Part shown: piece by piece, positions 14,888 through 36,200 of the stretch
Layout: every line of letters begins with the position of its first letter
Numbering within the stretch: position 1 is the stretch's first letter
Assembly (NCBI GenBank): GCA_021527695.1
Contig: JAKFAO010000005.1
Location: forward strand, 124,001-188,000
DNA length: 64,000 bases
Direction: 5' to 3'
Source of the DNA: Naematelia aurantialba
Lineage: Eukaryota; Basidiomycota; Tremellomycetes; Tremellales; Naemateliaceae
Notes under the pieces: model-generated
The model's input: the letters and a program-made list of their open reading frames with translations, nothing else
Told to the model about the DNA's origin: nothing
The model's database searches: none
Made by a program: the position numbers and the translations under genes

Positions 14888-17800
14888 ATGGCAGCGACTG
14901 GGGCCGGTCAAGCGACTCAAGCTGTCTTGCAGGCGTTACATACATTGTACCACGACCCCGACTCGAGCTCAAAAAAGAGGGCGAATGAATGGTTGGAGGA
15001 GTTTCAACATAGCGTATGTTGCTTGCTGGGCCTGAGTCTACAGGGGGTAAAAGAGCTGAGACGGTGGAATTGATAGGTGGAAGCATGGCAGACATGTCAT
15101 ACGCTACTCACGAGCCCAGAGTCACCATTAGAAGGGCGCTTGTTCTCCGCGCAAACGTTACGAGCCAAAGTGAGTTTGTTGTCCGAAGCAAACGTTCGGG
15201 AGTCGATGCGCTCGGGCCAAGCTGCTCCGGCAATATGGACAGACTGTCCTCATCCTGTTTGGCAGCAGGAGTGCCAGTGGGGCAGCTAATTGGCGGCGGT
15301 ATGGCTGACGAAGGGCGCGCTTAGATCCTGTACGACCTCCCTCAACTACCTCGTGATCAGCTCCCTCCTTTACGCGACTCCCTTCTTAGCTCCCTATCTC
15401 CTCTCACCCAGCCCGGCGCCCCAGCAGGATCTCGCGCGGTACTCACACAACTATGTTTGGCGCTGTCGGATCTGGCACTGCAGATGCCAGAGTGGCCAGA
15501 TATCGTCGCGGGGATGGTCGAGCACTACGGCAAGGATCCTTCGACCGTGACCATTCTGTTGGGATTCGTAAAGGCACTTGTGGAAGAGGAGGGACACCCA
15601 AGATTACCCATATATGTTAGTGTTGCCTCGGTCGCCTATCGACGAATGGAACGAGGTACGCTAATGTTGGCAGAGTAATGAAGCTCGGGCATACGTCGCG
15701 GATCTCCTTGGGAATGCTGCGGAACACGTCACTGGGATTTTGAGCATGTACATCCAAGCTGCAGGTGAGCTATCATTGTGAAGCGCGGACTGATCGTGTA
15801 GGCATCACAACCGCAATCCAGATCGCCGTCTTCGATACTCTTCGAAGCTGGCTCATAGGAGGCTACATCGTACCGACACAAGTCGCGCAGACTCCCCTCT
15901 TCGCCGCCCTGTTCGACGCGCTTGCATCAGATCAGCTGTTCGATTCGGCTGTAGACTGTCTTTGTGATCTCATTCACGAGACACAAGAAGTAGAGGACAA
16001 CGTTCAGGTGGTCGAGCAGATCGTTCCGCGGCTGTTAGCTCTACGTCCTCAGCTAGAAGCACACAAAGAGGATCCCGATCGGATACGAGGGTACTGTCGA
16101 CTATACTGCGAGGCTGGCGAGTGCTACAAAGACCTCATTGCGCGGCATCTGGATCTCATACCGCTCGTGGAGGCCATCCTCGTCTGCTCCGAATACCCCG
16201 ACCTCGACATTGTTCCTATAACCTTCAACTTCTGGTACACGCTTGCGCCAGCCGTAGAAGCGCATGCACTCGAACCCTCCTTTACCCCCCTCCTCGAGGC
16301 TTATGCCCGCCTGCAAACCGGTATTATCTCCCACCTCCACTTCCCTCGAGACGACGAGCCCCAGACTGCGCAGGAGCGCGACGAGTTCCGGCTCTTCCGG
16401 CACCGCATGGGTGATACCCTCAAAGATTGCTGTCATGTCCTAGGGGCACCGGCGTGTCTGCGAAAATCGTACGATCTGGTCATTGCGGCCTTGGAGAAAG
16501 GCTCTCCGTCATGGCAGGAGATTGAAGCACCGCTTTTCTCCATGCGCTCCATGGGCGCAGAGGTCGACCCAGACGACGACGAGATCATTCCCCATATAAT
16601 GGAAATGTTGCCAAAGCTGCCCGAACATCCTCGAATACGCTATGCTGCCATTCTTGTTATTTCACGCTACACCCAATGGACAGATCGCCATCCGCAAAAT
16701 CTCGCATTCCAACTACAATACATATCCGCCGGATTCGATATGGCCGACGAGGAAGTGTCAGCAGCCGCGGCGCAGGCCATGAAATTCATGTGCCAAGACT
16801 GTAATCAGCATTTGGTCCCTTTCCTTCCACAATTGCATGCTTTCGTCAACACTGTTGGGCACAAGCTTGATCAAGCCGATATGGTAGAGGTATGTGAGGC
16901 GATCGGATACGTCATCAGCTCTATGCCGGCGGAGCAAGGAGCGCAAGCCTTACAACAATTCTGCGAGCCCCTTATTGAGCGCGTACGGGTCATTGCCGAT
17001 GACCCGGGAGAAGCTCCGAAACCAGAATTGCAGAAGGTTGCCGGTGAGTGGCCATCATGGATTTCTGGCAACGGGGCTAATCGAGTAGACGCTTTGGAGC
17101 AAATCGATGCTTTCCTAGCCGTCGTCCGTACGCTTGACCCTGTTCCTGAGCCGTGCTTCCCCACATGCCCGCTTGTATACTCGATTCTTGATCGTCTTTT
17201 GTCTCGTTACGCAAAATTCTATTTCATTTCGGAACGCGTTGGGTCTGTGATGCGACGCGGCTTAGCATTCTTTCCGGCACGCGCATTGGAGCCGGTCATC
17301 CAGCCCGTGCTAGAGCGTATGACTTCTGCATTTGGAACCACGGGCTACGCAAGCTATCTGTGGATCGTGGGCAAAGTCACAGCGAAACTCGGCGATTCAG
17401 CAAGAGGACCAGGAGGAGAGGCGATCGCTGCCCTGCTCGGCAGAGCATTTGAGGGGGTCACGTCGTCTCTGAGCACGACTCTGCAAACCAAGGTTGCGGT
17501 AGAGATTCCCGATGGTAAGCCCTACGCTGGTCATGAAGCTGACATCTAGTCATGGATGACTATGTGCACTGTTTGATGGCGTATCTAAATACTCTTCCTG
17601 CTGTGCTGTCATCCCCGGCCATCCCCCTCGCTGTTCGGCATACGCTGTCCGCCCTTTCGTTGCCCGCTTCAGAAACCATCTTCGCTTCCCTCGATACGTT
17701 AGCTGTCCTATCGCAACGGTTATCCCACGCGCAGTATCAGCCTGTTCTTCGGCCAGTGTTCGTTCAATATGGAGAGATCATTGTCGGCTTGACGATATCG

Positions 17801-18158
17801 GGGATTGTACAGGACTTTCCTGAAGAATCACTCGATCAGGTGCAACAGATTCTTGGCGCGACGTTGAGTTGTGCCGAAGCGGCCGTTGCTCAATCTTGGG
17901 TCAACAAGGCTGTTGACGGTCTACCAGGCAATGTTTTGCCTGCTGCAGAAAAGCAAAAGTTCGTAGGCGAGGTACAACAGTAAGTCGTGTCAGGCGATTT
18001 ACGAGTTGCGAATTTGCTGATGTCGTTTTCTCAGGCATTTGGCGATCCCCGGTACGGACAGGCTGAAGACTGCGCTGAACGATCTCGTACGAGCGGCGAG
18101 GCGTGCAAGGGAAAGGGGACGGCAATCGCGAAAGAGTCTTGGAGCAGGAGCGGACTAG
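14888..18158 (+). CDS. MTR10: mRNA/SR-protein import receptor MTR10 (transportin-3 type karyopherin)
   Basis: An importin-beta family receptor that carries SR-type RNA-binding proteins into the nucleus. The N-terminal helix pair reads 'LQALHTLYHDPDSSSKKRAN' then EWLEEFQHS, and the next exon starts 'VEAWQTCHTLL', close to the start of the family. The main exon (about 15,800-17,540) is a continuous run of HEAT helices; 'CYKDLIARHLDLIPLVEAIL' matches the conserved central part. The last exon, spliced at acceptor tctcag (18,034), gives 'NDLVRAARRARERGRQSRK' and a stop at 18158, the usual basic C-terminus. ATG 14888 (MAATGAG) is the first in frame. About 960 residues, normal for the family. Upstream RRP12 is on the same strand, and downstream begins the accessory cluster. 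Confidence 0.92.
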
Positions 18159-18738: not shown

Positions 18739-20276
18739 ATGTCTTCTTCACCGCCGCCTAGTACTCGCACGTTGCGGTTCAAACCTAGCGCTCGCAGCCT
18801 CAGCATCGATCCTGAGCGCGCTGAGCGGTCTGTGCGGGGCTCTCTGCCCGTCGGGTCCAGGAGCACCTCGCAGCTCCCAGCATCCTCGTTGCCGAATTCG
18901 CCCATGTCCTCCCGGTCGTTTGAGCACACTCGTCTCAAGTAAGTCTGTCCGATTTGCCTTGATCCTGGCAGTACTAATATCGGCCTTCCGTAATATAGAA
19001 GTCCTGGCGGGCGTCAATTCGGCTCCTTTGCCGACATGTTCGGCCACACGTCACCTTCAACTCCTGCGCCTCCAACCAACAAACAGCTGCCAGAGCTACC
19101 GGCGGAACCCCAGAGCCCGTCACTACTGAGCCGACTTCCAGCCTTTTTCCACCAGCTCAAGAATATCAAGCGCAGTTCGATCAGACCGCGGTCCCGGAGC
19201 AACTCGCTCGTCCCTCCCACCGGGCAGGAGGCGCCGCGCGACCCTCGAAGTAGTTCTGGGTGCGTACTGTAGCTCCTGGACTGCGCAACGCACAGATCTG
19301 ACGACTTGGTGTACAGTTCCACATCCCCAATTTCTCCTCCCTCGCCGCTCGGAAGCAAGTCACCCACGTCAAGGAGGGGGCCACTGAGTCCCGTACGCAG
19401 CCGACTCCGCCTCAGGCCCAAGACTCCCCCGACGCCGTCTGATGGTGGCGAAACTTTGAGAGATACCAGTACGAGGGAGAGCCCGCATTCACGCGCGTCA
19501 TCAAACACTTTCGTGGGAGATACTGATTGTCCGCTCGAGAGTGATCGCAGTTTGGCGGAATCTGGATGTAGCAGGGACGGTGCGCAAGGGCGGCGCGGAA
19601 CATACGACCCGGCCGGGGAGCGTCCACCGTTCCCGCTGATTCAGGAAACGTGCGGTGAGTGGTCTGTGAGTAACGTTGGGGCTGTTGGCTGAGATCATCC
19701 TTAGCCACTGGCATAACTGCAATGACAGGGCCCGGCTGCCCGCAAAGTTTAGACAGACAATCAGCTGCGAACTCTCCCAGAGGCGTGACGTTCGAGCCGC
19801 ACCCGGTCGATAGACTGCACAGAACACGGGCTGCAAGTACCAGCGTGCTCGGCAAACAACGGTCACGGACAGCAAGCTCAGTGGATACTGACTCGAACAG
19901 CGGAAAATTCATCCTTACAACCGTCACAGAGACCGAACAGCCAGCCCCACGCTGGAGGATAGACAGCCAGACTACGGCCGGCCAAGGAACATTGAACCCT
20001 CGCCCACGCCGAGCCAGTGACTCGAGCGCTTATTCAGGCCGGGAAGACATCTGCCTCACTCTGAATAATACTGTCTCGTTCGATTCGACGCCGGATCCCC
20101 GTTTGCAGTTGGTGCCGCTCTCTTCCAAGGAGTCTACAGTACTGCCCTCAGCTTGCTCTAATTACCTCGTCGTGAGACCGTCGCGGCTTTCTTTCGGTGC
20201 CGACCAAGAAAGGCCACCCATTGAGGGCGACTCTGAGCAGCTGGTGTTTCCCACCCCTCCCAGATCAGTGCGATAG
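18739..20276 (+). CDS. Cluster gene A: Ser/Pro-rich disordered protein
   Basis: Not recognised. Four exons (18739-18938, 18999-19259, 19317-19654, 19705-20276) with introns of 50-60 nt keep frame and give 456 residues; the first intron contains a good branch site (gtactaat). The product is rich in Ser, Pro, Arg and Thr and looks disordered, apart from a hydrophobic-basic stretch in the second exon, 'SLLSRLPAFFHQLKNIKRSS', that could form an amphipathic helix. It starts MSSSPPPSTRTL, similar in style to gene G (MSSSSSSGLRTP). A short motif 'SFADMFGHTSPS' resembles motifs in D, E and G. SP/TP dipeptides are frequent, so it could be a substrate of proline-directed kinases (inference). First member of the + strand cluster. 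Confidence 0.75.
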
Positions 20277-20980
20277 ATAGGTGGGGAATTTGGGCTCGAG
20301 GATTCGCCGAAACCAAGGACCATGAGCACCCTCATATTCACATGCATCTGCTTCTCAAGAGCTCTTTGAGCCTGAATGATGCCACACCTGTTCATAACTC
20401 TGTCTCACTCAAGACGAATTGTTGCCCTAGCGCCACGCGTCCTTTTGTACCTCGTCTCGACACGACTACTCATACTTTCTTTTCCAGATAGTCGGGAAAA
20501 TTGGTGCAGTCGCGCGACATGCGATTCTGTCTCGGCCTCGGGTGCAGCTCGGACCAAGTTGCCTTCCGTTTCGTCTCGCTTCCACAAATATGTTTCAGGA
20601 GTACAGGTAATCCTTTGTGGATAAGCCGACCCTCTGGTCGCCGCTGTGTCGTTGCCCAGCGCCGCGTTCTGCTCCCAGACTTTAAGGGTTGCGCGCTTCC
20701 CACCGCGGCATGGGGACGAGATGCCGGTGTCTCTGTAAGCCAGATGGGTTCTTGCCTTGCTGGAGACTTCGGCAACCAAGACGAACTCCAGGCGAAGAAG
20801 TGTCGGCCAATCGCCACTATCTTGGCTCCTAGTGAGGGTGGTGTAGAATTGTGGTATATTTCATGGGGTTGAAGGCCAGTACGAAGGCTGCTTCTTCGAT
20901 ACAGTACTGATCGATCCAGGCCCCTTGCCCACTTCTGAACCTCCCAGAACTATTGCGAAGCCATCGAATCTCGCTTGGCG
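20277..20980. other. Spacer between cluster genes A and B
   Basis: Open frames on both strands are short and overlap one another without protein character or convincing splice sites. A TATA-like tatatt occurs near 20851, about 125 bp before the start of gene B. Nothing else is seen. Confidence 0.5.
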
Positions 20981-21923
20981 ATGACCGCAGTTTCTTTATT
21001 ATCTTCGCACCTTGCTACACGCGCCCGATCAGTAATGAATCTCGACTCTTCCAGTTCTATCTGTCATGAATCAGAAATCTCCACTCTGGTCAACACCCCC
21101 ACGTATGTTGAGCTCCGTAGCATCCCAACTTGCCCCGCGCTGCCTTGTCTCCTCCACAAGCTCCTCACTCTGTTCCCCTCCCTCTTCCCCCTCCCGCTCC
21201 CGCTCCCGCTCCCTCTCTCACCGTGTTTCATCACCCCTACCGTACTCGGAGCTAACTGGAACAGGAGCGAAAACCCGCTGAGCGATATCTCTGGTTGGAC
21301 AGACCCGTGCGCGTCCATTTATGAAGAGGACTCCATTTCACGGCGGTCTGATCATTCAGACGAGGGTGTAGAGGGCTCCATTTCGCGATGGTCAGACCAC
21401 TCGGACGAGGGAAAACATGCTTCGGCAAGGCGGAAAACAACCGTCACGAAGCTTCGGAACATGATGCGTTCTGAGACGCCCAAACATCATGAATCGCTGA
21501 CTTGTCCATCTCGGGCCAGGAAGCTATCCGCCTCGGCCTACGACTGTGCTCTGTAGGCCTGCCCCCATTGTCCAGTACTGAAAGATGACACCTACACCCA
21601 ATAGCGAGCGGGCTACTAGGGCCTCCAAGAGCTCTCGGAAATTACGAGATCGCTGGCCATCCTCCAAAGGCTTGAAAGCAATCACCAGCTTGTTCAGCAC
21701 CCAAATCCGATCAGACCAAGAACGGAAAATCGTACGTGACTGCTTGAGAATAATGTGTGCGGCTAACTCGGCACCTCCCAAGGATCGATTGCATGATCTG
21801 TACGAATGTCTCGACACGCCATTTGCCAGGAGATTCACTGTACCTGTGGATGAGTATTTTGATGACGAGACCACATCCTCCAGAAGTAGAAAGTCTATGC
21901 TGCGCATGCAGGGCTGTTCGTAG
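20981..21923 (+). CDS. Cluster gene B: Ser-rich protein with a 15-residue tandem repeat
   Basis: Not recognised. Exons 20981-21102, 21265-21552 and 21605-21923 join in frame to 242 residues. The first intron is long for this genome (162 nt) and holds a CCCGCT-type pyrimidine microsatellite. The second exon carries two copies of a repeat built on SISRxSDHSDEG. The third exon changes character: it is basic then mixed and may fold, with 'SKGLKAITSLFSTQ', 'QERKIVRDCLRIMCAANSAP', a DECLD-like 'LYECLDTPFARRF' segment and an acidic 'DEYFDDETTS' end. ATG 20981 (MTAVSLLSS) was chosen as the first in frame; MNLDSSSS at 21035 is an alternative. It does not have the five-base first exon of C-F. Confidence 0.65.
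21326..21415 (+). repeat. 45-bp in-frame tandem repeat, two copies, in gene B
   Basis: Codons 21326-21370 and 21371-21415 encode EDSISRRSDHSDEGV and EGSISRWSDHSDEGK. The two copies differ at about ten sites, most of them third-position synonymous changes. Confidence 0.85.
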
Positions 21924-22585
21924 CTCTTTTCAACAGGGTAATTGCGCACGCCCTAGTTGGTGGAGACCATATCATTTCTGGATGGACACTCGAGATTCGT
22001 GAGAGCCCACCATCGCACAAAGCAGGAAGCGGAGGGAAGAGCTTTACCCCAGACTGTTTAGGCTCACCCTATTAGTCCGGAAATCACAGGAGTTACACTG
22101 CCACTTGGTCCTGGCATCTTGCGCGCCGGAGCATGTTTAGCTGTCCACCACGGTCGCGGCCTTGTCTGTATACGCGTCTGCAGCGGCCCCTTTTCGTTTT
22201 TCTCATCCCGACGAGGAGGCTGAACGTAAAGGATGGTCTAGTCCGCTGTTGCGTGAGTGAGACCGGAGCTCCGGTCCCAAAAGGACGCAGTGTCTCTAAC
22301 TGCGATAGGATGAGGAGCTCGCGATGCGGCCTCACCCAGCCTGTCACAATCGCCTGGCTTTTGACGAAGGATGCGTGCTGTGCAGAGATTGGAGTGCTCC
22401 TTTTGAATTCCCACGCTATCTTCTGTGGACCTTCCTATGTTGTCCTTGCAACTCAGCATCGATAGTAGCCAGCACCGAAGAAGATATAAGGCAACTTGTA
22501 TGTGAACTGCATTTGAACCCCCAACCCTACTTGTAGGTCAATTCGAATCTAATCAGATCCTTCTCTCCACACATATCGCACTGTC
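21924..22585. other. Spacer with the promoter of cluster gene C
   Basis: No gene is seen. The right end is the promoter of gene C with a TATA box at 22493-22499. Overlapping open frames on both strands have no protein character. Confidence 0.55.
22493..22499 (+). promoter_or_regulatory. TATA box of gene C (gatataag)
   Basis: A TATA element lies about 92 bp before the ATG at 22586, within a stretch otherwise of average composition. D, E and G have comparable elements at similar distances. Confidence 0.6.
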
Positions 22586-23556
22586 ATGCCGTGAGTCGTC
22601 CAAACTCATATTTGCGTCCGCACCCCTAGATGATCACTGATTACTCTTCGTCTTCAATCAGACCGTCAAAGAAGTCAAAGGACCAGAACCCTCGATCGTT
22701 GGGACATGGGCCCAGTACGAAACTGTCTGCAGGAAGGCTGTGGGTTGGGCGCTCTGGCGCAATCTGCGCTGATTTGCGATCAGGTCTCTGGATCTGGATC
22801 AAGAATTTGGCGCGGAACGGACGACTTCCAATTCGGCTGATGATCCCACGAAGAGAGCGGGACAGACGACTTCAAACTCTGCTGGTGGTAGTACATTTGG
22901 GATGGTCGGTTGTGCTCAGCTATTTCCAAGCACCAAGCTAAGACTTTGCAGCCCTTGCGTAGCTCTCCAGAGCCGGTCCTGGAAATCGTTGAGGATCCTC
23001 GCCGGGCATCATGGAGATCAACCACGGCTACAATCGGCTCCAACAATTCCAACAATTCCACGAACAGCCCTTCAGGGTCGAGTACGCTGCCTGTGTTGGA
23101 TGGGAATGCTGATCATCGTTAGGTGCACTTCCAAACCGAAAGGATTTCTTTCAACCTCCGGTAAACCCCAGCGACGAATATCCTCCAAAGTTGTCATCTA
23201 GCCTATCTTTTGGTTCTTCAGCTTTTGCTGCGCACACAACTCGGCAACATGGGACCTCTTCCAGCGGCTTCCAGGGAAGAAGAGGGACAGATCCCTCAAC
23301 TGCAACGCCTAATGATGAGCAGCAGACAGACGATACTCCTCGTTCGAATACAAATCACTACCCTCTAAGCGTCACTCCTCGTTCGAATACAAATCACTAC
23401 CCTCTAAGCGCCGCGTCCTCCACCTTCCTCCCTGGTGCCCAACACCACAATCCCGCATCCCACTCCACTCGCTCTCTGGGAAGGCGTCCCGCTGGTAGTC
23501 TCCCTCCTCGGCACCCGCCACCTAGTGGAGCTCCCCCTCCGCCCCCATACATGTGA
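22586..23556 (+). CDS. Cluster gene C: Ser/Asn/Pro-rich protein, five-base first exon
   Basis: Not recognised. Five exons (22586-22590, 22662-22739, 22784-22904, 22952-23081, 23123-23556) keep frame and give 255 residues. The first coding exon is only ATGCC, then donor gtgagt; translation continues PPSKKSKDQN. Introns are 41-71 nt. The product is disordered: a basic start, 'RLSLDLDQEFGAERTTSNS', Asn/Ser runs (GSNNSNNSTNSPSG), a near-perfect 13-residue duplication (TPRSNTNHYPLSV/A) and a proline-rich end, SGAPPPPPYM. The frame in exon 3-5 is supported by composition, since the other frames give long but chemically random text. A TATA box lies 92 bp upstream. Second intron 44 nt, the shortest in this gene after the 41-nt fourth one. 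Confidence 0.7.
23335..23412 (+). repeat. 39-bp tandem duplication in gene C
   Basis: Units 23335-23373 and 23374-23412 differ at one base only (gtc versus gcc, Val to Ala) and encode TPRSNTNHYPLS plus V or A. In frame. Confidence 0.95.
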
Positions 23557-24392
23557 CGGAGGCAGATCTGGCTCGATCGGACTAGAGAAACTTGAATTTT
23601 TGCTTGTTCTTAGTTTATGCAGCCTTCATATACAACACCACATACGAGCCCAGCTTCTGAAGCAGGGCTGAATGACTGCTTTCTAGAATTGTATTCTGTG
23701 CGGCCAGTATGGAGGGTGTAATGTCGTGTGAATGCTTACGAGACGAGGCGTATTGGTTGCACCGAGAACACGGCTTCTGCCTCGGATCATGTATTCGCCA
23801 CTTTGTGCTTCCATCCCCAAAATGCTGGGTTGCAAGGGAAACAGGAAATGAAGTTTTCTCACAAGTGCATAGTGTGCGTGAGAGTGAATCCTTAGTATCC
23901 AGGGTTGTGGTTGTATGGAGAAGCAATTGTGAGTGTCTGTGGAGTGGGAAGTGAAGCATTGTCATTCAGAACCGGGAGGGGGTCGGATATTGTCATATAT
24001 TTATATCCACAGTCGGTCTTGGCGAGATAACACGGCGATCGGGCAAAGAAGCACTTGGGTCCACCCATCCCGCCATGTCAGTACCCGGCTCGGCCTGTCT
24101 TATCCGTGGCAAACGCACATCATTCCATGCTCTCCTACAATCGGCCAGAAAGGCAGCATCAAATTCACAGGCCAATCGCCCACGTTTCAGCTAGCAAGAA
24201 GAAGATCAGGCATTTCTTCCGTGGAAGTCCTCGATAAGTCGGAGTTGACTCGAGCAGAAGTGTCACAGCCATTTGAGGGCGAAGACTGCCCTATATAAGA
24301 GAAAATTGCCCACCCAAGGGTCGACCAATGTGAGCCAGTTTTTTTCATACAGCTCGCGGACAGAGTACCAACCACTTCAAACCTCTTGCAAC
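23557..24392. other. Spacer with the promoter of cluster gene D
   Basis: No gene is seen. The left half is 3' flank of gene C; the right end carries a TATA box at 24292-24299 in front of gene D. Confidence 0.55.
24292..24299 (+). promoter_or_regulatory. TATA box of gene D (ctatataag)
   Basis: A canonical TATATAA element lies about 100 bp upstream of the ATG at 24393. Confidence 0.7.
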
Positions 24393-25198
24393 ATGAGGTA
24401 AGCTGTTAAGCTAAAAACTACCGATAAACACGCACGAGCTGATAATCGAAGTTTCAGAAAGGACGATTCCAGCAAGACTAAACCCAAGCCTCACAAGATT
24501 CCCAGAGTGAGCAAATGACAACTGAACCTGGCTGATGTTCGCAAAGGGCCTGACATCTGCAACGTCTCTTGGCGGCCCAAGTTCACTGCTCCCTAAAGGA
24601 GAATCTTCGGCTGGAGCTACAGAACCGATACGAATTCGGTACGCATGAAGTTCCAGGACAGAGGGAAGACCGCTGATCCTTACAGCCCGAGTACATCATC
24701 CAGGCCCGTGAGTGCTTCCATCCAGATCGTATTTGGCTGAAAAATGCAGTCTTACTCCGGGAGGCATGTCGAGTGAGCATCTATGTGCGCTGGCAAGATG
24801 TGCTGAAAGGCTGCCGTAGGGGTCCATCCCGAGCTGGTGAGAGCTCCAGGACAAGCGTGCAGGGCAAAGCTGCTCGCACTGACAGCTCTGATAAGTCCAC
24901 CTGGGACAAAGCACCCCGCAGCGATGAGACAAAGAAAGCTTCTTCTGCGAACTTACCCGAACTTGATAGTTTCCTGGATTTGAACAGCTCTGCATCGTCT
25001 CTGGGACTGAGCGAGTCCCCAAGCAAGCCTTCCATCCCTGCGGGTCCCAGCCTCGGTGGATCCCGCCCTGCAACTACCGACCCTGCCAGTTCCAGCCCTA
25101 CGGGCTCCAGCCGTGGTGGTGCCAGCCCTTCGGGATCTCTCATTGGTCAATTTCCTGCGCCTCCTGATAGGTCGAAGAGCATAATGGAGGACCGATGA
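24393..25198 (+). CDS. Cluster gene D: Ser-rich protein, five-base first exon
   Basis: Not recognised. Six exons (24393-24397, 24458-24506, 24547-24638, 24686-24707, 24750-24772, 24820-25198) join in frame to 189 residues. The first coding exon is ATGAG, then gtaagc; the protein starts MRKDDSSKTKPKPHKIPR. Two internal exons are only 22 and 23 bases. The last exon is Ser/Lys-rich, contains 'LDSFLDLNSSASSLGLS' and ends with Gly/Ser/Pro repeats of the type SSPTGSSRGGASPSGS. No domain, signal peptide or membrane segment is visible. Coding is supported by six junctions that all preserve frame and by the composition of the last exon. Like C, E and G it has a TATA box near -100. Confidence 0.7.
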
Positions 25199-26372
25199 GG
25201 TCATGCTCATGGGAGCAGCGCAACAGACTAGGCATTCCTCGTGCTCGTCTATCAGGTTGTCTTGCTGTTCGCCCTCAAAAATAATGTCCATGTATTCTGC
25301 GTTTCGTGTTGGCCGGATAAGTGATGCCCATGACGCTCGTTTCGGACGATGGTATGATTCCATGATCCAGTCCAAAGCCGGATGTGGTGTCGTGGACGGA
25401 TTAAGTGGTGTCGTGGATTCGCACTGGTATGGATGCAGCCGAGAGCGTTCCCACTTACAGTACTTTCCAATAGCACCTTTTTGTGGTAGTAGCGCCTTGA
25501 CCCAATGGGTTAAGGGTGACAACTAGTTACCCATAACAGACGCACTCGAGGTGCCGCTATACCCGCTTGGGGGGACTGGTTCCCACACCGGCAGAAAGGA
25601 TCAGACACTCAACTCCTGGTGTCTCAGCAGCCTTGAGGGCCTGTGGGATCCGTCATGATCCTCAGCGATACCCAGGATCTGATACCCGGATGCCAGAAAG
25701 ATGGCTACGGCGTGCGAGTGGGTTCAAAGGAAAGGACGACCTATCAACCTCGGCTTTCCTTCGTCCGCGGCGGTACACTAAGCTGGATCCATTCGCCACT
25801 TTCTCCGCCCACCTACACCCACCAGTAAGAACCCAGGGAGTTTCAGGCGGTCGAGACCGAGGAGTATGGGAATGTTAGCAGGAGATTCTGTCAATGGTGA
25901 GTGAGACTGCGGACATATATGATGCGATGTCCGTCGTGGAAGAGGCTACGCCGGCGACTCGTCCGTCCACCAGCGATCCCTTCGCGCTAAGCGCCAGAAC
26001 GCTCCATCGGCTTTTGGCCTCTACTACTCATGCTCCACGTCTTCAAAGGTGGCCCCGTTTGCGTCCGCTGATCTTGCCGATTCTGCGAGGTGTTGAAAAG
26101 GTAGAGGACAAGTACCGCTTCTAGCCCGGAGTGTCCTGCTCTCTTGGACCGAAAAATGGGAGTATTGTCTACTACCTCGTTTGGAAAGGAGAAACTGAGG
26201 ACCTGGTCAGCTCTTTTGACAGGTCGGAGTACCGTAGAGTCGACTTGTCAGCCCAGCTTAGGCTGATGCTTCCCTATAAGAGACCGCTCCTGGACGGTGT
26301 TCATGTTCAATCCCATTCCACTCTCTTCACCGTACAGCAACGAGAAACACCACTCAAGCATCAGTAGTCGCA
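25199..26372. other. Spacer with the promoter of cluster gene E
   Basis: Two + strand open frames (about 25567-25878 and 25894-26124) look partly protein-like but lack a coherent splice chain, so they are not called. A 13-bp direct repeat gtggtgtcgtgga occurs at 25384 and 25405. The right end holds the TATA box of gene E at 26274-26280. Confidence 0.45.
26274..26280 (+). promoter_or_regulatory. TATA-like box of gene E (cctataag)
   Basis: Located about 99 bp before the ATG at 26373, the same distance as in gene D. Confidence 0.6.
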
Positions 26373-27182
26373 ATGTCGTAAGACAAGGATTTGCGTCGGC
26401 ATGTATGCTCGGCTAATGTTTACCATAGAGGGGATTCGAACAGCCAGAACACCCATAGATATGTGAGAGCTTCATTGAGTTGTTGTAGGCTTACCTTGTC
26501 CTAGTGGCACGAACTGCCTAAAAGAACGGATTCCCTCCTTTCGCCAGACCAGAGACGGCAACATTCAAACTCGTGAGTACCGGGCCACCGAGCATGTATA
26601 CAGTGCTGAATTCGGAATGCAGCGATGGAAGGACAAATGTAGGCCGATTCCAAGTCTCCTGCGCTGATTTAACAGGCGTCGAGCGTACCGTCACAGACGC
26701 CCCACTCGTGAGTACCGATGGATGCCCAGTTCAGTGAAACTCAGTGCAGCTCTTAGAAGTTCTTCACTCAGCAACCCGTCTGCATCGAGGAGTACAGTTC
26801 CGAGCAGCTCGGGCCAACCGTCACGTCCGCTACCTACGTTGAGCATCTCGACAGACACATCTACCAAGGGCTCCCAACCAGGACCTATGAGTTCATTCAT
26901 GGACATGTCGTCCACGCCCGCGAGCAATAATTCTGCTCTTCCGAGTGGTTTCCAACAGGGTCAGAGCCCGAATCTTTCCAGTGCGCTGGCGACGGGGCAT
27001 TCGGGCGATTCCCAAGGATTTATCACTTTCCAGTCCCCTTCTTCCGAGGGAAATCTACCCAGCGGGTGAGTAATAGTCAATTTGCTTGCTTTAGCTCGTT
27101 CATACTTTGTCGTAGGTACCCAAAGAGCGCCGTCTCAAACCAATCAGGTTCATCTACCAACCCTTCTCCTAAACGTAGGTGA
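26373..27182 (+). CDS. Cluster gene E: Ser/Thr/Pro-rich protein, five-base first exon
   Basis: Not recognised. Seven exons (26373-26377, 26429-26462, 26505-26572, 26623-26638, 26676-26707, 26745-27065, 27116-27182) keep frame and give 180 residues. The first coding exon is ATGTC, then gtaaga; the fourth exon is 16 bases. The protein starts MSGDSNSQNTHRY and is polar and disordered throughout, with 'SSFMDMSSTPAS' close in pattern to motifs of A, D and G, and a basic end NPSPKRR that could serve in nuclear targeting. All acceptors are preceded by a plausible branch site. The many very small exons make automatic prediction likely to miss this gene. Confidence 0.7.
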
Positions 27183-28232
27183 GCTTCGGGCGGGAGGGGG
27201 CATGGGAATGTCCTTGACTTGCTTCCTCTTTCCTGGCGACACGGCCGCCAGTTGACGGATACGGGAATGAATTGCGTCCCCGATGGAATATACACTTTTG
27301 TTTTCACTCTTTCTTTCTATGTAGTCTGCTTTGCGCGTGATGAGAAAAAAACTTGAAAACATTCCTCGAGCCAGAAAGTAAACGAGACCGAGACTGAGTC
27401 GTGCTACGTCCAGGTGGACAGTCGACAGCAGGGCTCTGTTCTCTGTGAGAATCCGGAAACAGGAGGGATGGATGATGGTGGAACACTCCGCCACGACAGA
27501 TACTAGAAGGCTGACACGGGTCTTCACAGCACGCTCGACTATGAAGAAGGTTGCCGTTGGCAGGTATATCGGCCGCTATGGGTATACAGTAAATTGCACT
27601 CGACGACAAACCGCCTTCCCTAAGTGGCCCGCCTCGATTCTCAATTCGAAGCCCCACGCCGCCCCAGCGATGCTCCGCTCGGGAAGTGGCATATTGCTCA
27701 GTGTGGTCCACCACGCTAGTCTTCGGAATGAAGCCAGCACCACGACTAAAATTGACTTGAAGTTCTTGTGCGCGGAAACGGCGTACTCCAACACTCAGAG
27801 GTCTTCCTTTCAGTCCTCACTGGGCCTTCTCAATGTCGTGCAACATCTCTGATTGCTCGGCCGCGGCTCCTCGGGTACGCTGAGAAGCAGAGCACACCAG
27901 GATTAGAGCTTCTGATGCTCAACCGTGCTTCTACTACTCAGCTGTCAAAGGGCGGATCGGGCGTATTGACATCCTGACCGGCTTCGGCGTTGTTCACTCC
28001 TAAAACGCTCACTGAAAGGAGAGAGGCGTTGTCTGATCGCCTGTGCTTGGTATATAGTTCAGACTCGTATATCACCCTCGGGTTCATCTGTCTTTGTACT
28101 GTAGCTTGCGAAGTCAGTGTCGCATCGCAGCCTGTCCTTCAAGACCCGGACAATTTTACATACTCTTCCCCGCTACGCGCCGCTTGTCTGAAAGCAGTCC
28201 GCCGACGTACTATCTACCAGTTACCCGCAATC
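27183..28232. other. Spacer between cluster genes E and F
   Basis: No gene can be supported. A 135-codon + strand frame at 27445-27852 lacks splice context and protein character. TATA-like elements at 28051-28057 and 28066-28072 are 160-180 bp before gene F. Confidence 0.5.
28051..28057 (+). promoter_or_regulatory. TATA-like element upstream of gene F
   Basis: The sequence tatatag lies about 180 bp before the ATG at 28233, further away than in C, D, E and G; a second TATA-like cgtatat follows at about 28066. Weak assignment. Confidence 0.35.
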
Positions 28233-29380
28233 ATGAGGTGAGTCCACATGCGTAATCATACGTAAATCACGGCACTGAACCGTTTCGATCCGTCCTCAGC
28301 TCTATTTACAGAATCTGTTCACTGCCCAGCCGACCACTCCCCCACACCCGACCAAGCTATGCGAGAAGTGAGACCTGGAACGACAACCTTCCCGGAGCTT
28401 GTAGTACCAGATGGTCATCTTTGCGTGCAGCCAGAGAGAAGCTGTTTAGTCGATCAAAGATGTCACAGGGTGCAGCCGCTTCTTCCTTGGACGCAGACCA
28501 TCCCACCTCCGACGGCAGGTATGTACAATCCCGCGTCATTTGCACAGCGCTCAGCTCACTCCATGGGCACCTTCAGCTCCCCGGCAGCGCTTGTCCAAGT
28601 CCTTGACATCAGAAGGCTAGGCGACGAAGAGTTCGGTCCAAGTACTCCTACAAGTACCCATCCATACGCCAAGTGAGGATGCCCCGTAGGAAAGAACTGA
28701 CTTGAACACAGCGTGTTCACGGAGGAGGAGTTTCTCAGCATGCACAACACGCCAAGTGACCACGTTCTCGGCGACCCACTGTACGTCATGAAGGACTGGG
28801 CCGGCGACCTCTCCTTTTCTGGCTCTGGTAAGGCTGATGCGTGGCCGTTGGGGTGGGAAGATACCCTCAGCTTGGCCTGGGGCCAGCTCTGCCCTGGAGC
28901 GCCGGACCAACGTGGCTCGCCGTGAGCACTATTCATATTCTAGTGTGGAACTCCGTTCTGATTGAGGGGTAGTCTTCCAATTCAACAGAACCCGGAAGAA
29001 AGCGAAATCGAGGGTTCGAGGAGTGATAATGTGATCCAATCAGGCCCTGAAGGTCCAAGGATCTCAATTCCTATGATGACTGTCACGGAAGGCAAGTGCG
29101 ATGAATGTACGCCAGAGAACTGCCAAACGGAGATTACTCAATCCCCAACCCCATGGCGGTCTTGATAAAAGTTGACATCCTCGTAGGTAGTGGGGGGACA
29201 TCTCCGTACCCCACGTGCCCCGGTTCCGCTGTCACGATGTGCTCCTCGGCAGACGATTTAGACGCTCAATGTGGCAGCGCAGGTGCTCCTTTTGTCGAGA
29301 GCGACTTACGACTTGAACCACGACCAGATTCTCGGCAGATGATCGACGAGCTCGCATTTTCGCTGATGGAAGGACCTTGA
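28233..29380 (+). CDS. Cluster gene F: unknown protein, five-base first exon, GC-AG intron
   Basis: Not recognised. Six exons (28233-28237, 28300-28518, 28577-28672, 28712-28921, 28973-29091, 29187-29380) join in frame to 280 residues. The first coding exon is ATGAG, then gtgagt; the protein starts MSSIYRICSLPSRPL. Unlike its neighbours the middle is not Ser-rich: 'FTEEEFLSMHNTPSDHVLGD' and the Trp-containing stretch that follows look able to fold. The last intron (29092-29186) starts with GCAAGT, the strong GC donor consensus. If it is not spliced, translation stops at 29165 with a short tail, CDECTPENC..., so two C-termini are possible. The GTAAGG inside exon 4 (near 28829) could be another donor. 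Confidence 0.6.
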
Positions 29381-30490
29381 GCGGTTGTAGAGGGAAATAT
29401 TTGTGAAGTGGGACGCACGCAGTGCAGAGGCACCAGGAAGTACGCTTGGTGTCTATATCTACATCCAGATAACCGAGTATGCATGACTCGAGGGTGTCAC
29501 GAAAGACACCGACTAGCCTGCTCCGAGCCCCTGAACTCAGGATATCGTATACCTCCAGTCGATATGTAGATTCTCGCACTCGCCCTTTCACTTTCTCTCA
29601 AGGAATGTATCTCTTGTCACACACACACCCTCTCTCTCTTGCTCAAGTAAACTCTTCAGTCCCCACAGTCACCGTCTCGTCCTGGGGCCTCTAGTGTCCA
29701 CAGTCCCCGTCGCGACCGCAGGGTAGAACTGTCTCAGGGAGCAGCTACGCACGGACCTCGCCTGCGCGCGGACCTCTGCTGAGCTTGAAGTGATCGACTC
29801 GCCACCAGGCGGAGCTCTCGGCAAATCACTTGTCAGACTGGTCGAAAACCCAGAACAGGCTATACAAACTAAGATACGGGGAGGTGGGCCGTGCTTCCGA
29901 AGACACCGCTCTCGTCGGTAGGCCACCACGCCAAAGGAAATGCCACAGTGGTGAGAACGCTTCCTTTGGTATCCGGCTGATCGGTCCGGGGCGACCGCGA
30001 TTCGAAGTCTCGACTCCAGCGCTCGCTACCCGCCACAAGGCAGCTTCCACAGAGTTGAAGCGTGGTGTCTTCTGTCTAGACTCTCTGTTTCTCGAAAACA
30101 ACAGGCCTTGACGGCCCGAAATGCTGCACATTTGATTCGATGGTGGGTGACCAGGGGGAGAGCGGCGGCTCAACCCTGCCCCGTACTCCTGCTGCGAAGG
30201 TCGCACGACTCGCGGAATGTAAAGGAGGGCTGGCGTAGATTGCTGTCGGCGCCGAGTAGAAGGCCAATCTCGGTCAAAGGTGCTCTGAGGAGTCTTGCTT
30301 TGAACGGTGAAGTTTCACAGTGATGGCACGTTTGCGCGCTGAAAGTCCACCCTGTCGACCCGGTTTCTTGTATGCTGAGCGAAGGCCAGCGAATTCGACC
30401 TGGCTGGCGCCCCGGTATAAAGACCAACAGGCGGTATTCTCAAGACAGGCATCAGCACTGTTTCTAAGCACTCGAGTGGAATCGCCCACC
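29381..30490. other. Spacer with the promoter of cluster gene G
   Basis: No gene can be supported on either strand. Short CA and CT runs occur near 29620-29645. A TATA box (gtataaag, 30415-30422) lies 75 bp before the start of gene G. Confidence 0.55.
30415..30422 (+). promoter_or_regulatory. TATA box of gene G (gtataaag)
   Basis: A TATAAA element about 75 bp upstream of ATG 30491. Confidence 0.65.
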
Positions 30491-32728
30491 ATGTCAAGCA
30501 GCAGCTCAAGCGGCCTGCGAACCCCGTAAGTCCCCTTGTGTCGTTGCCGCCTCCTTTGGGGAGAATGCTACAGTACGTCCAAGAGCTTACGGCGCCATAG
30601 CAAGGGCTCCAAATCCTCGCAGGGCGTCACGTCGCCCGCTACGTCCTCGGTAGACAGCAGCCCGGTCTCCTTGTATCCCTCACCAGGATGGCTATCGAAA
30701 TGGTTCGGTGGTCCTCGCGTGCAACGACGAGGATCGGCGCCGATTTTAACGGTCGAGATGCCTACGAGCCAATCCCACGCGCAGCCAGGGGCGTTCATGA
30801 CCTCTCCGACTTCCTCGGCATCTGCAACGTCAGGGCAGGCGTTCAGTTCGCCGACCGACGGTCCGGTGCTGAGGCACAACAATTACGGGTTTCGCTCCCT
30901 CAACGAAAGGTCGACCCTTGAGTCGCCGAGCGATAACTCTCCTTTTGGCTCGCCGACAGAGAACCTCACAGGCTCACCAACCGAAAGAGACAGGGCACCA
31001 ACAGAAAGAGACAGAGACGGCGAACTGCCGTACCCACTCGAAGCACCGTCTTCTAGGAACTTTCTCGACGTCGAGCCCAGCCCCACCAGCCCCGGGTGGA
31101 AGTTCCTCTCCAACTTGGGGAGGTTCAAGACCGCCTCTACACCGAATATGCGCAGACAACGTCCGTTCCAGACGACCTCGTCATCGCCAGCTGTGACCCC
31201 GTAAGCTATCGCTGGACCAGACGTGGGCGGCCGCTCACGTACCCGTTTGTAGGACATACGGCAACGTAGGGGCTCGGGTGTCCAGAGGCAACTCGGTCAA
31301 CCGGGACAAGGCACTTCCCTCTGCTCCATCGCCACCTCGGGTCGGGTAAGTGCGATTTTGATACTGTACATGGCTTCACTGGTCGAGGCGCTCTTACCAT
31401 AACCGCCCCTGTACACGCCTTCACGCCACCGAGATATGGTGCAGCTGACGACGTGCCAAGTCCTCCGCCAGCAGATTCCTCTCTGTACGCCCCCGGGTCG
31501 CCATCGACCAACCGTCGGAGTCGACAATCCAGTATGAGCTTCTTCACTGACATTCCGACGATCGATACGGCGCTCTCGGGCCTGGCTGAGAAGCCGCCAG
31601 GCGAGTCGGAAATGCCCGTGGCGGCGCCCCGGGCGTCATATGACGGAAGCTGCGAGAGCACCAGCACGGCAGGTCGGGCGGAGATTGTACGCATACACGA
31701 TCTGGCCCTCCCGGCCGACTAGTGAGCCCAACAGACCGGCTCGCTCTACTCCCCAGCTCAGACCGTCGGAAGGGCTGGAGTGGCAGCCGGAACCCAAGCA
31801 CTAGACCTCTTGCTGACAAGTCACAGCAACGCCGTCCCAGGCTCGTTGACGGAGTACAATGCCGGCCCATTGGAAAGCTCGCCGACCCGGCGGCCAGGCG
31901 CACTGCTGCGTGGCCAGTCGTCCGACCTCGTCGTAAGCGGCACGGTGCTGCGCTCTCGAACCCAGTAAGCACACTCTTGGCATCCAGCCAGAAAGGGAGA
32001 AGCCTTATCTCTCTTCTCGCTTTGCTTCGACGCGCCACTCTCCCAGTGACTGTAGCATGCCAATATGTGCTACCACATATGGTTAGGATGGGAGTGCAGC
32101 ATGGAGGTGCACTTGCCCGAAAGCGGAACGGACAGATCGGGGAGACGACGTGCTGATCCCGATACGCAGGAGCACATTCGCATCCACGGGCCCCACTGCG
32201 CGACCCGCAGCCGACCAAATCGCAGCGAGGCCGATCCCCGCCCACTCCACTTCTGCGAGGCCGATCCCCGCCCGCTCCACCTCTGCAAGGCCGACCGCCC
32301 ACTCCACTTCCGCCAGGCCCTCGACCACCCGATCTGCGTCCGCGTCTGTGACAGGTCGACCATCGACCGTCGGTTCCACGGGGAGATCATCAGCCACCAC
32401 CCCCCGATCCACTTCCGCACGACCCTCGACTGGAGACGATACCCTTCACCGGGGGCGTCCGACCCTGCCCCTCTCACCGGTACCGACGCGTCATATGGGC
32501 GAAACAAGCCTTGATACGTCCGTCAAGAGCGGGAGCGAGACGGGACTCTACACGTCTGTCAAGAGCGGGGGCGAAACGGGACGTGACACGTCTGTGAAGA
32601 ACGGGATCGTAACGGATCGTCCTCCTTCGAGCCCCAAGACCCGCGTCAGGTCGCACAGCCAGCCCGCTAAGAGACGGGTCAAGATCTTCAGTCTGTTTGG
32701 ATCCGACTCGCCTGCGCAATTCTCATAG
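30491..32728 (+). CDS. Cluster gene G: long Ser/Pro/Thr-rich repeat protein
   Basis: Not recognised. Six exons (30491-30525, 30574-31200, 31253-31345, 31434-31686, 31735-31964, 32170-32728) keep frame at all five junctions and give 598 residues. It starts MSSSSSSGLRTP, is rich in SP/TP sites, and contains short aromatic-basic islands: 'PGWLSKWFGGPRVQRRGS', 'PGWKFLSNLGRFKTAS' and, at the very end, 'AKRRVKIFSLFGSDSPAQFS'. These three similar islands (W/F with K/R spaced by hydrophobics) could bind membranes or a partner. 'RNFLDVEPSPTS' and 'SFFTDIPT' resemble the motif seen in A, D and E. Two in-frame repeat blocks lie in the last exon. The last member of the cluster; it converges with the histidine kinase gene. 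Confidence 0.75.
32225..32311 (+). repeat. 30-bp tandem repeat, about three copies, in gene G
   Basis: Units at 32225-32254, 32255-32284 and a 27-base unit at 32285-32311 encode ARPIPAHSTS, ARPIPARSTS and ARPTAHSTS. Further diverged STSARP copies follow. Confidence 0.85.
32516..32617 (+). repeat. 36-bp tandem repeat, 2.8 copies, in gene G
   Basis: Units at 32516-32551, 32552-32587 and a partial unit at 32588-32617 encode TSVKSGSETGLY, TSVKSGGETGRD and TSVKNGIVTD. Confidence 0.85.
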
Positions 32729-33297: not shown

Positions 33298-36200
33298 TTA
33301 CTCCGTGGGGTGTTCCGCCTTCCACCTCTCAACATCCTCTTTCAGACTCTTGATCCCCACAGGCTTTGTCCTCCACTCGTCAATCCCGCACTCAATCATA
33401 CCTCGTCGTCTCTGCGCCTCCCCAGATAAGGCAGTGACTGCAATTATCCGACTACGCTGCCACTTGTGCGTCGACTCGATGTGCCGCATCTCTGCTGCCG
33501 CGACGAAGCCATCCTTGACTGGCATGTTGATGTCTAACAAGACGATGTTTGGCCGGAACACGCGGAACTGGCGGATGGCGTCTTGTCCGTCGACGGCTTC
33601 GGCAAAGTGGCAGGCCTAACTACGTCAGCAATAGGTCACAAAGAAGCGACACTGATCAGGAGGTAAAGAGGCAAAGAGGCAAAGGGACAAAGACACAAAA
33701 AGACAGAGAGGCAAAAAGGCAACAATGCAAGACAAGAGAAGCGGGAGAACAACAAGGATCCAATGGTAACTCACAGTACGTTTCAGCATCGTAGTCAAGA
33801 TCCGCCGGTTGACCGAGTTGTCCTCCACGACCAGCACTGAAAACTTCAGCACGGGACTCCGCGGAGGGGGGGAGGTAACGTTGTCAAAGCGCGGGGTAAG
33901 ACGGTGGGAAGTGACACGCCCTGAACGCAAGCTAGACGTACCTCTCATTGGACCATCTGCGGGACCCTGCCCCTCCACCATTGGACCGCTCACGGCTTCG
34001 CGCAGGGTCGGCCTTGAGATCTCTTGCGACGATTCGTGCGAACTATCCGAGTCGCTCCAGTTGACCAGCGGGAACGGGTCCGACGCATGTTCGTGCCCCA
34101 GGCCCGGCCGCTGTCCAACCAGGACGGTAAACGGACTGCGCTCGAAGAAGGGGCCGTGCAGGTCGTCCGGAGTATGCGGTGGCGAGGGCATGAGGTCTTC
34201 ACTCGTATCCGTTCGCCTAGGGGACAGACTCGTCGCGGCTGAGATGGCAGAGGAGGACGTCATCGAGCCAGTGGAGAGCTCTCGCGGTCCGGCAGGAGGG
34301 CGAGCTATGATGGTCGATGCCGCCGAGCCAGCCATGCTGGAAGCGGAATCGAGTGCCTCAGGACTGCTGATAGGACCACCAATCTCGGAGGGGCTAACGA
34401 CGGGACCACCAGCCTCGGAACCACCGACGACGGCAGATACGTACGTCTCTTGCGGGGGAGCGGACAACTCTGGCGGTTTCATAATGGCCGCCATCACACT
34501 TGGCCGTAGCGGGCGGCTCAGGTATGTGATCGGCACGTTTGCCAGAGCGGGATGTGGTGAACGTAGAGGTACATCATCCTTGGTGAGTATGATGACCTGA
34601 ACAGTTGGCCGTGCCCCTTGGGCTAAGGCGGCGATTTGAGAGGGATGGAGGGAACCATCGGCGACCACAATCAAGTTGGCATAGTGAAGGTCGCTGACTA
34701 CGCGGCACGAGTTGAGCTTGAGTTGGCGGTGCAGACTCTTGCCAACACGTCGGACACCAGCATCCATCCCGTCGAAACCAGCAAGGTAAATCCCATCTTG
34801 TCGGACTGCGTTCCTACTTCCCTCGATTTCGTATTGAGAGCCAGATGCACTGATCGATGTCCCTGGCCCTTGTTGTTGCAACTCGTCTTGATCCGATATG
34901 TTGTCGTCGTTAAGCAGATGGACGGGCAATTCGACGTGGACCAGAGTGCCCTTATTGAGCGTGGAGGCGATGGCAAGTTTACCCCCGAGAATCTCAATCA
35001 TGCGCTGGGCGAGACCGAGACCTAAGCCGGAACCAGGCATAAAGGGATTTGCTTTTGCAAATGGCCGCAGCACCTCTCGCTCGAGGAACTCGCCCGTCAC
35101 TTGACAATCGTCAGTTCCATATTACTATGAAAGTTGGACCACTCACTGCCACATCCAGAATCCTTTATATCGATACTGATAGTAGACAATCTAATGCTGT
35201 TGTCGTATCCGGCAGGCAGCACAACATCGCGTGAAACGTCTTGTACAGTGATATGGATGAAACCCTTGTTGGTGAACTTGCACGAGTTTTGAATGATCTT
35301 CCCAAGCGCCCTGCACAAACATTAGGAACCGATTCACAAGCTCTCAGTAGAAGCAGAAACTTGCCTGATAATCGGACCCGGATCGTTCATCATGAGCCAT
35401 CCCCCTCTATGCCTAGGCAAAATCTCCAATATCATCTCGACGTTTGACGAAACTCCTACCCCCGAAATGCTCCTCATCGTTTTCTCCGTTTCAGTGGCCT
35501 CCTGGATGACCTGTTCTAGCACCTGTGCAAAGTCTGTGTACCGCTCATCCGTTCGTGAGGTTTCCTGCGATCGCACCTGCCCATCGAGCACAGCTGTGGC
35601 TTCGTCAATCCTGCTCGCCATACGTCCTATATCAAGCGTATCGATGATGTTCTCGAGAATATTTCCCAGGGCGAGTCCATTCGACTCGATGATTTCGAGA
35701 TGAGATATTGCTTCCGTCCGGTCTTCAGGCGACAAGGTCTTCGAGGAAGGATTCGTCACGATACGCGGCGATCGGGGGCTCTCAGGGCTAGTACCAGTGT
35801 TTTCTGTAGAAAGCGGAGGAGTGACGACGGGTGAAGATAACGCAGGGTGGAGACAAGCGCGAAGTAAGGTGGCAGCAGCATTGATCTGATGTAAAGGCGT
35901 TCGCAATTCGTGTGAGGCAGCGGCAGCAAAGCTGAGCTGTGCGCGCTCCGCTTGATGAAGCCGTTCCTTCATGACTGCCAACGAGTCAGCTAGTGGTTGT
36001 GACCTGGCTGCTGAAACTCCAGCCTGGCTGCTGAAACTCCAGCCAGCACTTACCTGAAGCGAGTAGGGAGCCAGCGATAGTCTCGACGAATTGCATCGCA
36101 CCGGCGGGATATGTGTACAGCGGATCCGTCCAGCAGGCGACCACAGCGAATGCGACCTGATGCAGCGTCAGCATATTCTGCTGCTGCTGTAAGCCGTGAA

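Follow-up and report, generated by a model that had tools for sequence, protein, structure and literature searches.

The stretch analysed here, referred to as the window, is 64,000 nucleotides (nt) of the genome of the fungus Naematelia aurantialba (assembly GCA_021527695.1, contig JAKFAO010000005.1, here C11; C11:124001-188000). The assembly that was searched comprises 20,997,016 bases on 15 contigs. Positions 18739 to 32728 of the window carry seven plausible multi-exon genes on the + strand, which we call g1 to g7, flanked by a gene for the nuclear import receptor MTR10/transportin-3 and a gene for a hybrid histidine kinase. The original prediction had described this interval as an array of genes for disordered proteins rich in serine, proline, and threonine and without recognisable domains, resembling an expanded and fast-evolving family specific to its lineage. 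The array was confirmed, with an ATG at 18739 and a final stop codon ending at 32728, and its support is uneven across the seven genes.

Seven gene models and their support

All models were curated by hand from a reading of the DNA, each exon junction was verified by script, and the seven chains run along the + strand without internal stops. The first gene, g1 (18739-20276; 456 amino acids, aa), has four exons at 18739-18938, 18999-19259, 19317-19654, and 19705-20276. Four exons are also found in g2 (20981-21923; 225 aa), at 20981-21102, 21265-21552, 21605-21731, and 21783-21923; this is the weakest model, and none of its introns has a GTRAG donor. The next four genes begin with a first exon of 5 nt, written here with a slash at the exon end. 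The start of g3 (22586-23556; 255 aa; five exons) reads ATGCC/GTGAG and is followed by exons at 22662-22739, 22784-22904, 22952-23081, and 23123-23556. That of g4 (24393-25198; 189 aa; six exons; a hand model) reads ATGAG/GTAAG, with further exons at 24458-24506, 24547-24638, 24686-24707, 24750-24772, and 24820-25198. In g5 (26373-27182; 176 aa; seven exons), a hand model of which automatic runs found just the 3' end, ATGTC/GTAAG precedes exons at 26429-26462, 26505-26572, 26623-26638, 26676-26707, 26757-27065, and 27116-27182. The hand model of g6 (28233-29380; 280 aa; six exons) starts with ATGAG/GTGAG and continues at 28300-28518, 28577-28672, 28712-28921, 28973-29091, and 29187-29380, its final intron being of the GC-AG type. 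Finally, g7 (30491-32728) has six exons at 30491-30525, 30574-31200, 31253-31345, 31434-31686 or 31461-31686, 31735-31932, and 32087-32728, and encodes 615 aa if exon 4 begins at 31434 or 606 aa if it begins at 31461.

Counting the 615-aa form of g7, the 31 donors comprise 19 GTRAG sites, 11 other GT sites, and the one GC site of g6, and 28 of the 31 acceptors are CAG or TAG. The first intron is in phase 2 in all seven genes. Gene models and start sites were compared over 278 kb, in which 46 strong models (score over 40, mostly without a database check) include 43 multi-exon cases, with first-intron phases 0, 1, and 2 in 17, 12, and 14 of them. None of these 43 begins with an exon as short as 10 nt, versus 5 nt in g3 to g6. 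A common series of intron phases (2, 0, 2, 0, 2) is found over the first five introns of g4 and g5. The predicted one-strand arrangement also held up: nine consecutive + strand genes, g1 to g7 among them, form the longest of 45 strand runs in the 278 kb, in a comparison that mixes the seven hand models with automatic models for the remainder.

The exon structure of the + strand goes beyond chance. A composition-neutral model, based solely on the avoidance of stops and on splice signals, gave 18.1 for the + strand of the interval and 3.8 for the - strand, while 80 dinucleotide shuffles of the + strand reached a maximum of 1.3. The + strands of two other gaps scored 34.0 and 23.8 under this model, as expected of real genes. 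The 18.1 comes from g1 to g3, joined as one gene, and from g7, with g4 to g6 contributing nothing. With cheaper starts, the model recovered g1 and g7 in exact form, together with the downstream exons of g2 and g3 and the terminal part of g5. Three - strand models, scoring 8.0, 3.5, and 3.2, were produced as well when the codon weight was zero.

The fusion of g1 to g3 into a 15-exon gene at one setting of the neutral model is the observation that favours reading the interval as ordinary conserved genes with misjoined exons, or as one long gene. Against this, lower start and stop costs split g1 to g3 apart, a TATA site precedes each of g3 to g7, and the proteins, with g7 represented by its first 336 aa, have no Pfam match. 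The interval also behaves differently from the gene-poor gaps of similar size at 104-122 and 225-242 kb of C11, which we considered as equivalents and rejected: a lenient model yields seven genes in each of them, many ordinary-looking in sequence by eye, and yields only g1 and g7 here. We consider misjoined exons or one long gene highly improbable.

Chains were additionally forced to begin at each curated start and compared with 200 shuffles per gene. The curated score was reached by no shuffle for g1 and g7, by 2 for g6, 3 for g3, 5 each for g4 and g5, and 11 for g2. All four 5-nt starts passed this chain test, versus 1 of 7 other ATGNNGTR starts on the - strand and 1 of 3 on the + strand. 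The test is imperfectly calibrated, because 8 of 60 arbitrary - strand ATGs of the interval also gave p<=0.05; the six that were listed lie opposite g1 or g7. The original prediction had taken the keeping of frame at every junction as a sign that these are not random frames. Taken alone this is weak evidence, given the passing - strand ATGs; the neutral model and per-gene shuffles are better tests and bear out a gene structure beyond chance.

Tandem repeats with periods of 21, 27/30, 36, 39, 45, and 45 nt, all divisible by three, occur within exons of g2, g3, and g7. Neighbouring copies show 52 differences, 29 of them at third codon positions (nominal P 7e-4, from comparisons that overlap), and 27 of the differences are synonymous and 25 not; in the in-frame 45-nt repeat of g2, the synonymous share is 6 of 9. 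One exon of g6 holds a weak repeat pair spaced 86 nt apart, which is not divisible by three. The last exon of g3 contains a perfect 39-nt tandem duplication (23335-23410), which is evidently recent. The synonymous codon bias, expressed as z, is 4.8 in g7, 2.6 in g1, and -1.1 to 1.1 in g2 to g6, and so favours g7 and g1 only.

A partly decayed array, with g1 and g7 functional and the smaller genes between them degenerating copies or transcribed non-coding units, would account for the concentration of the best scores and codon bias in g1 and g7. It would also account for the weakness of g2 to g6, among which g2 fits most poorly and g4 and the greater part of g6 escape the automatic runs. Decay is harder to reconcile with seven chains free of internal stops, even though 12 of the 31 donors are not GTRAG, with the synonymous differences among the in-frame repeats of g2 and g3, or with the intact TATA and first splice sites of g3 to g6. 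We judge it quite unlikely. Gene by gene, the support for gene structure is strong for g1 and g7 and fair for g3, while g2, g4, g5, and g6 rest mainly on hand-made models. The misses of the automatic runs mean that g4 and g6 depend on hand curation, as does the placing of the start in g3 and g5.

The encoded proteins

Serine, proline, and threonine together make up 39, 30, 40, 41, 46, 30, and 39% of the proteins of g1 to g7, in that order. Among the 46 strong models the median is 21.5% and the highest value 37%, and 36-37% is reached by two weaker models in other gaps. The predicted richness in these residues is clear in five of the proteins (39-46%) and less so in g2 and g6 (30%). On the TOP-IDP disorder scale, the means of g1, g3, g4, and g5 exceed the strong-model maximum of 0.225, and that of g7 (0.203) lies over the strong-model 90% level of 0.184, with g2 (0.146) and g6 (0.160) below this level. 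Judged from composition, predicted disorder is supported for five of the seven proteins.

As had been proposed, no recognisable domain was found: none of the seven proteins exceeded a Pfam cut-off, g7 being represented by its first 336 aa. Searches of a 5.8-billion-protein database covered g1 and g6, and gave no match at E<=1 among the 7989 candidates sharing most words with g1 and none at E<=10 among 1459 candidates for g6. The proposed lineage specificity is consistent with this absence of homologues for the two proteins searched. No signal peptide is apparent at any N-terminus, the translations having been judged by eye without a predictor. Within the genome, no further copy was found with full-length g1 to g6 and the N-terminal 252 aa of g7 as queries, few candidates being scored per search; the best weak matches, at E 0.17 and 0.48, are at chance level. 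The predicted expansion is limited accordingly. We found no published description of this array, going by titles and abstract openings, which does not prove its absence from print.

A link to the mating-type locus was considered and rejected. Matches to the STE3 pheromone receptor family lie on contigs C3 and C1 (G000:C3:579987-580935 and G000:C1:363126-363964), and none lies on C11.

A common 5' module and the origin of the array

Resemblance among the genes is found at their 5' ends. The TATA motif used here (TATAAR/TATAWAR) is rare, with a frequency of 0.017 per 100 nt per strand. On the + strand, it occurs 101 nt before the start of g3 (22485-22491), 101 nt before g4 (24292-24299), 98 nt before g5 (26275-26281), and 75 nt before g7 (30416-30422), and a TATA-like site lies 182 nt upstream of g6 (28051-28057). 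Successive sites of g3 to g7 are spaced 1.8-2.4 kb apart. No TATA site was found at -150 to -50 of g1 or g2. Within that range, 4 of the 7 genes have a site. Elsewhere it is seen in 0 of 46 strong and 6 of 35 weaker models (hypergeometric, one-sided: 1.2e-4 against the 46 and 2.6e-3 against the 81); over -500 to 0, the comparison models have 4 of 46 and 8 of 35.

The + strand of the interval contains four ATGNNGTRAG sites, which are exactly the starts of g3 to g6, with the ATG following the TATA site by 98-182 nt. A TATA site lies 40-200 nt upstream in all four, versus none of the 20 other ATGNNGTRAG sites in the 278 kb (Fisher 9e-5). Conversely, when each of the five + strand TATA sites of the interval is followed to the first ATG lying 40 nt or more downstream, that ATG is the start of g3, g4, g5, g6, or g7, and this rule leads to ATGNNGTRAG at 4 of 5 sites here versus 0 of 85 elsewhere (binomial 3e-10). 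The module is therefore distributed with both elements in g3 to g6, the TATA site only in g7, and neither in g1 and g2. Genome-wide, TATAAR-N(78-108)-ATGNNGTRAG has six matches, three of them in the interval. One of the three outside, at G000:C8:1695811-1695931, starts TATAAGAGA, like g4 and g5.

Upstream regions were compared in register, using 600 nt plus the initial 60 nt of the gene itself. Four of the 21 pairs (g4-g5, g6-g7, g4-g6, and g3-g6) reach or exceed the 97.5% level of seven-versus-control pairs (binomial 0.002). In a multiple alignment, five 5' ends have 47% mean column identity and nine invariant columns, which is not convincing alone. The 7-mer TGATGCT occurs in 3 of 5 upstream regions versus 0 of 45 controls, uncorrected for the number of 7-mers tried.

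The TATA to ATGNN/GTRAG module of g3 to g6, the in-register upstream similarity, and the 1.8-2.4 kb spacing of the TATA sites lend support to paralogy. The reading we favour, with middling confidence, sees an old tandem array in this interval; its genes would be TATA-driven and lineage-restricted, with 5' modules that are still recognisable and proteins that have diverged. The array would cover g3 to g6 and probably g7, with g1 and g2 being older members of it or else neighbours of unrelated origin. Tandem duplication may have acted on a unit of about 2 kb, after which the 5' modules would have stayed recognisable while the weakly constrained and largely disordered proteins diverged past alignment.

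A number of results weigh against this reading. None of the 21 pairwise alignments beats shuffles at p<0.05 and the best blastp E among the seven is 0.085, so that paralogy, as the original prediction had inferred it from order and architecture, is not supported at the protein level and its case lies in the 5' evidence. There, the TATA and ATGNN/GTRAG pattern was noticed by eye before testing, and its P values are post hoc. The count under the first-ATG rule falls to 1 of 5 at a minimum distance of 8 nt and 3 of 5 at 30 nt, reaching 4 of 5 from 40 nt, because nearer ATGs exist (outside the interval it is 0 of 85 throughout). The reversed pattern has nine matches genome-wide, which places the matches outside the interval at chance level. 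Measured against control-control promoter pairs, which have a long tail with one pair scoring 56, the same 4 of 21 upstream pairs reach the 95% level only (binomial 0.02), and the 5' ends have no overall alignment beyond scattered columns. An automatic run gave g3 an alternative start at 22630 that skips the first intron. The cheaper-start neutral model did not recover g4 or g6, and the automatic runs did not find g4 and found g6 only partly, with a score of 0.4 and its start missed. Codon usage in g2 to g6 is indistinguishable from background, and a codon model that had been trained with the region's strong genes scored the interval at 2.3, 0.4, and 9.3 versus 77.8 and 200.9 for the flanking genes. 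By composition, g2 and g6 are no more disorder-prone than many strong models. Phosphorylation motifs are not enriched in the seven proteins, PxxP in g1 alone exceeding z 3. Upstream counts of the stress-response element (STRE), the cAMP-response element (CRE), and Mig1-like motifs are not above controls.

Several of these results would be expected if the genes were seven unrelated young or de novo orphans in one tolerant interval, alike through base composition and not descent. The lack of protein similarity, the near-background codon usage of g2 to g6, and the lack of database matches for g1 and g6 all fit such an origin, and orphans are common in this fungus, a passage of PMC8777972 giving 2317 species-specific genes among the 5860 of strain NX-20. 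Independent births would not be expected to give four neighbours a common TATA to ATGNN/GTRAG module, or similarity upstream in register. We regard this explanation as somewhat unlikely.

If the interval is an old tandem array, its 5' ends hint at how the genes may be controlled. The TATA boxes suggest inducible expression and could drive inducible transcription of the array genes. The original prediction had raised a possible link to stress or the host. The lack of enrichment of the STRE, CRE, and Mig1 patterns counts against a simple stress regulon; one heat-shock motif (HSE) was found, upstream of g7. When intron 1 is retained, ATGNN/GTRAG reads Met-X-stop (NNG, then TRA), so splicing of this intron would gate translation, acting as an on/off switch in g3 to g6. 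For the proteins, a probable role is that of intracellular, disordered factors that regulate or act as scaffolds in a condition-specific state, with the dikaryon, fruiting, and contact with the Stereum host as candidates.

A more far-reaching version, which we think unlikely, is that the unit copied and kept in tandem was the splicing-gated 5' cassette (TATA, about 100 nt, ATGNN/GTRAG) and not the protein, leaving disordered coding regions free to change completely. If true, the array would serve as a workshop in which new genes arise under common control. Should the tandem-array reading be right, the paralogy of unalignable proteins would be recoverable from promoter and first-exon architecture, with a bearing on the number of "orphan" genes that are in fact old duplicates. 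The array would also offer a compact natural setting for testing splicing-gated expression and disordered-protein evolution in a cultivated, host-dependent mushroom.

Lineage-specific tandem families of fungi likewise consist of adjacent, same-strand, short multi-exon genes without detected homologues; their members can usually be aligned, whereas here only 5' features are held in common. The effector clusters of Ustilago maydis and other smuts similarly bring together genes of apparently restricted distribution in a fungus that has a host. They encode secreted proteins, whereas in the array proteins no signal peptide is apparent by eye. Cryptococcus neoformans is a relative of N. aurantialba in the same order. 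Intron-dependent and retention-dependent expression in that species is reported in PMC5006051 and PMC3744415, with regulation by intron retention and intron position. The regulation described there spans many genes, in contrast to the specific 5-nt first exon of four neighbours here. In yeast, TATA genes tend to be inducible, stress-linked, and fast-evolving. What the array has in common with them is the presence of a TATA box in genes that look young or duplicated. Inducible yeast genes with TATA boxes are treated in PMC3495647 and PMC3553024; the inducibility of the array is proposed from its TATA boxes, with stress motifs not enriched.

Flanking genes and other features

Both flanks of the array are conserved genes, as predicted. 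On the left, the MTR10/transportin-3 gene (15746-18158, + strand) is an automatic model that does not include the 5' end; its open reading frame at 15765-17549 was matched over 96% of its length, with 86% identity, by a protein of Naematelia encephala, and Pfam TNPO3/IPO13 repeats were matched. On the right, the hybrid histidine kinase gene (33298-38998, - strand; model plus Pfam) has GAF, HisKA, HATPase_c, and receiver domains. The GAF, HATPase_c, and receiver domains are above the Pfam cut-off, and HisKA scored 24.5 bits in one run, below its cut-off of 26.9, and 27.7 in another, above it.

The name given to NX-20 varies. PMC13085929 has a table that lists the strain as N. aurantialba and a passage that calls it N. 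sinensis; as given there, its annotation (5860 genes) was made without RNA-seq, and transcriptome-aided annotation of four N. sinensis strains yielded an average of 6564 genes. Unannotated genes are therefore expected in this genome.

Contig C11 starts with CCCCCTAACC, consistent with a telomere, which would place the array about 143 kb from a chromosome end. Outside the window, C11:104452-115223 holds another run of five weak + strand models with 19-31% serine, proline, and threonine, which may represent another gene array of this arm. Between g6 and g7, at 29490-29716, lies a dispersed repeat of about 225 bp with 13 matches (69-82% identity) on nine contigs, whose ends, judged by eye, resemble a solo long terminal repeat. 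An automatic - strand model at 45282-47514 contains C2H2 zinc fingers by Pfam, and we take it to resemble the glucose repressor CreA/Mig1.

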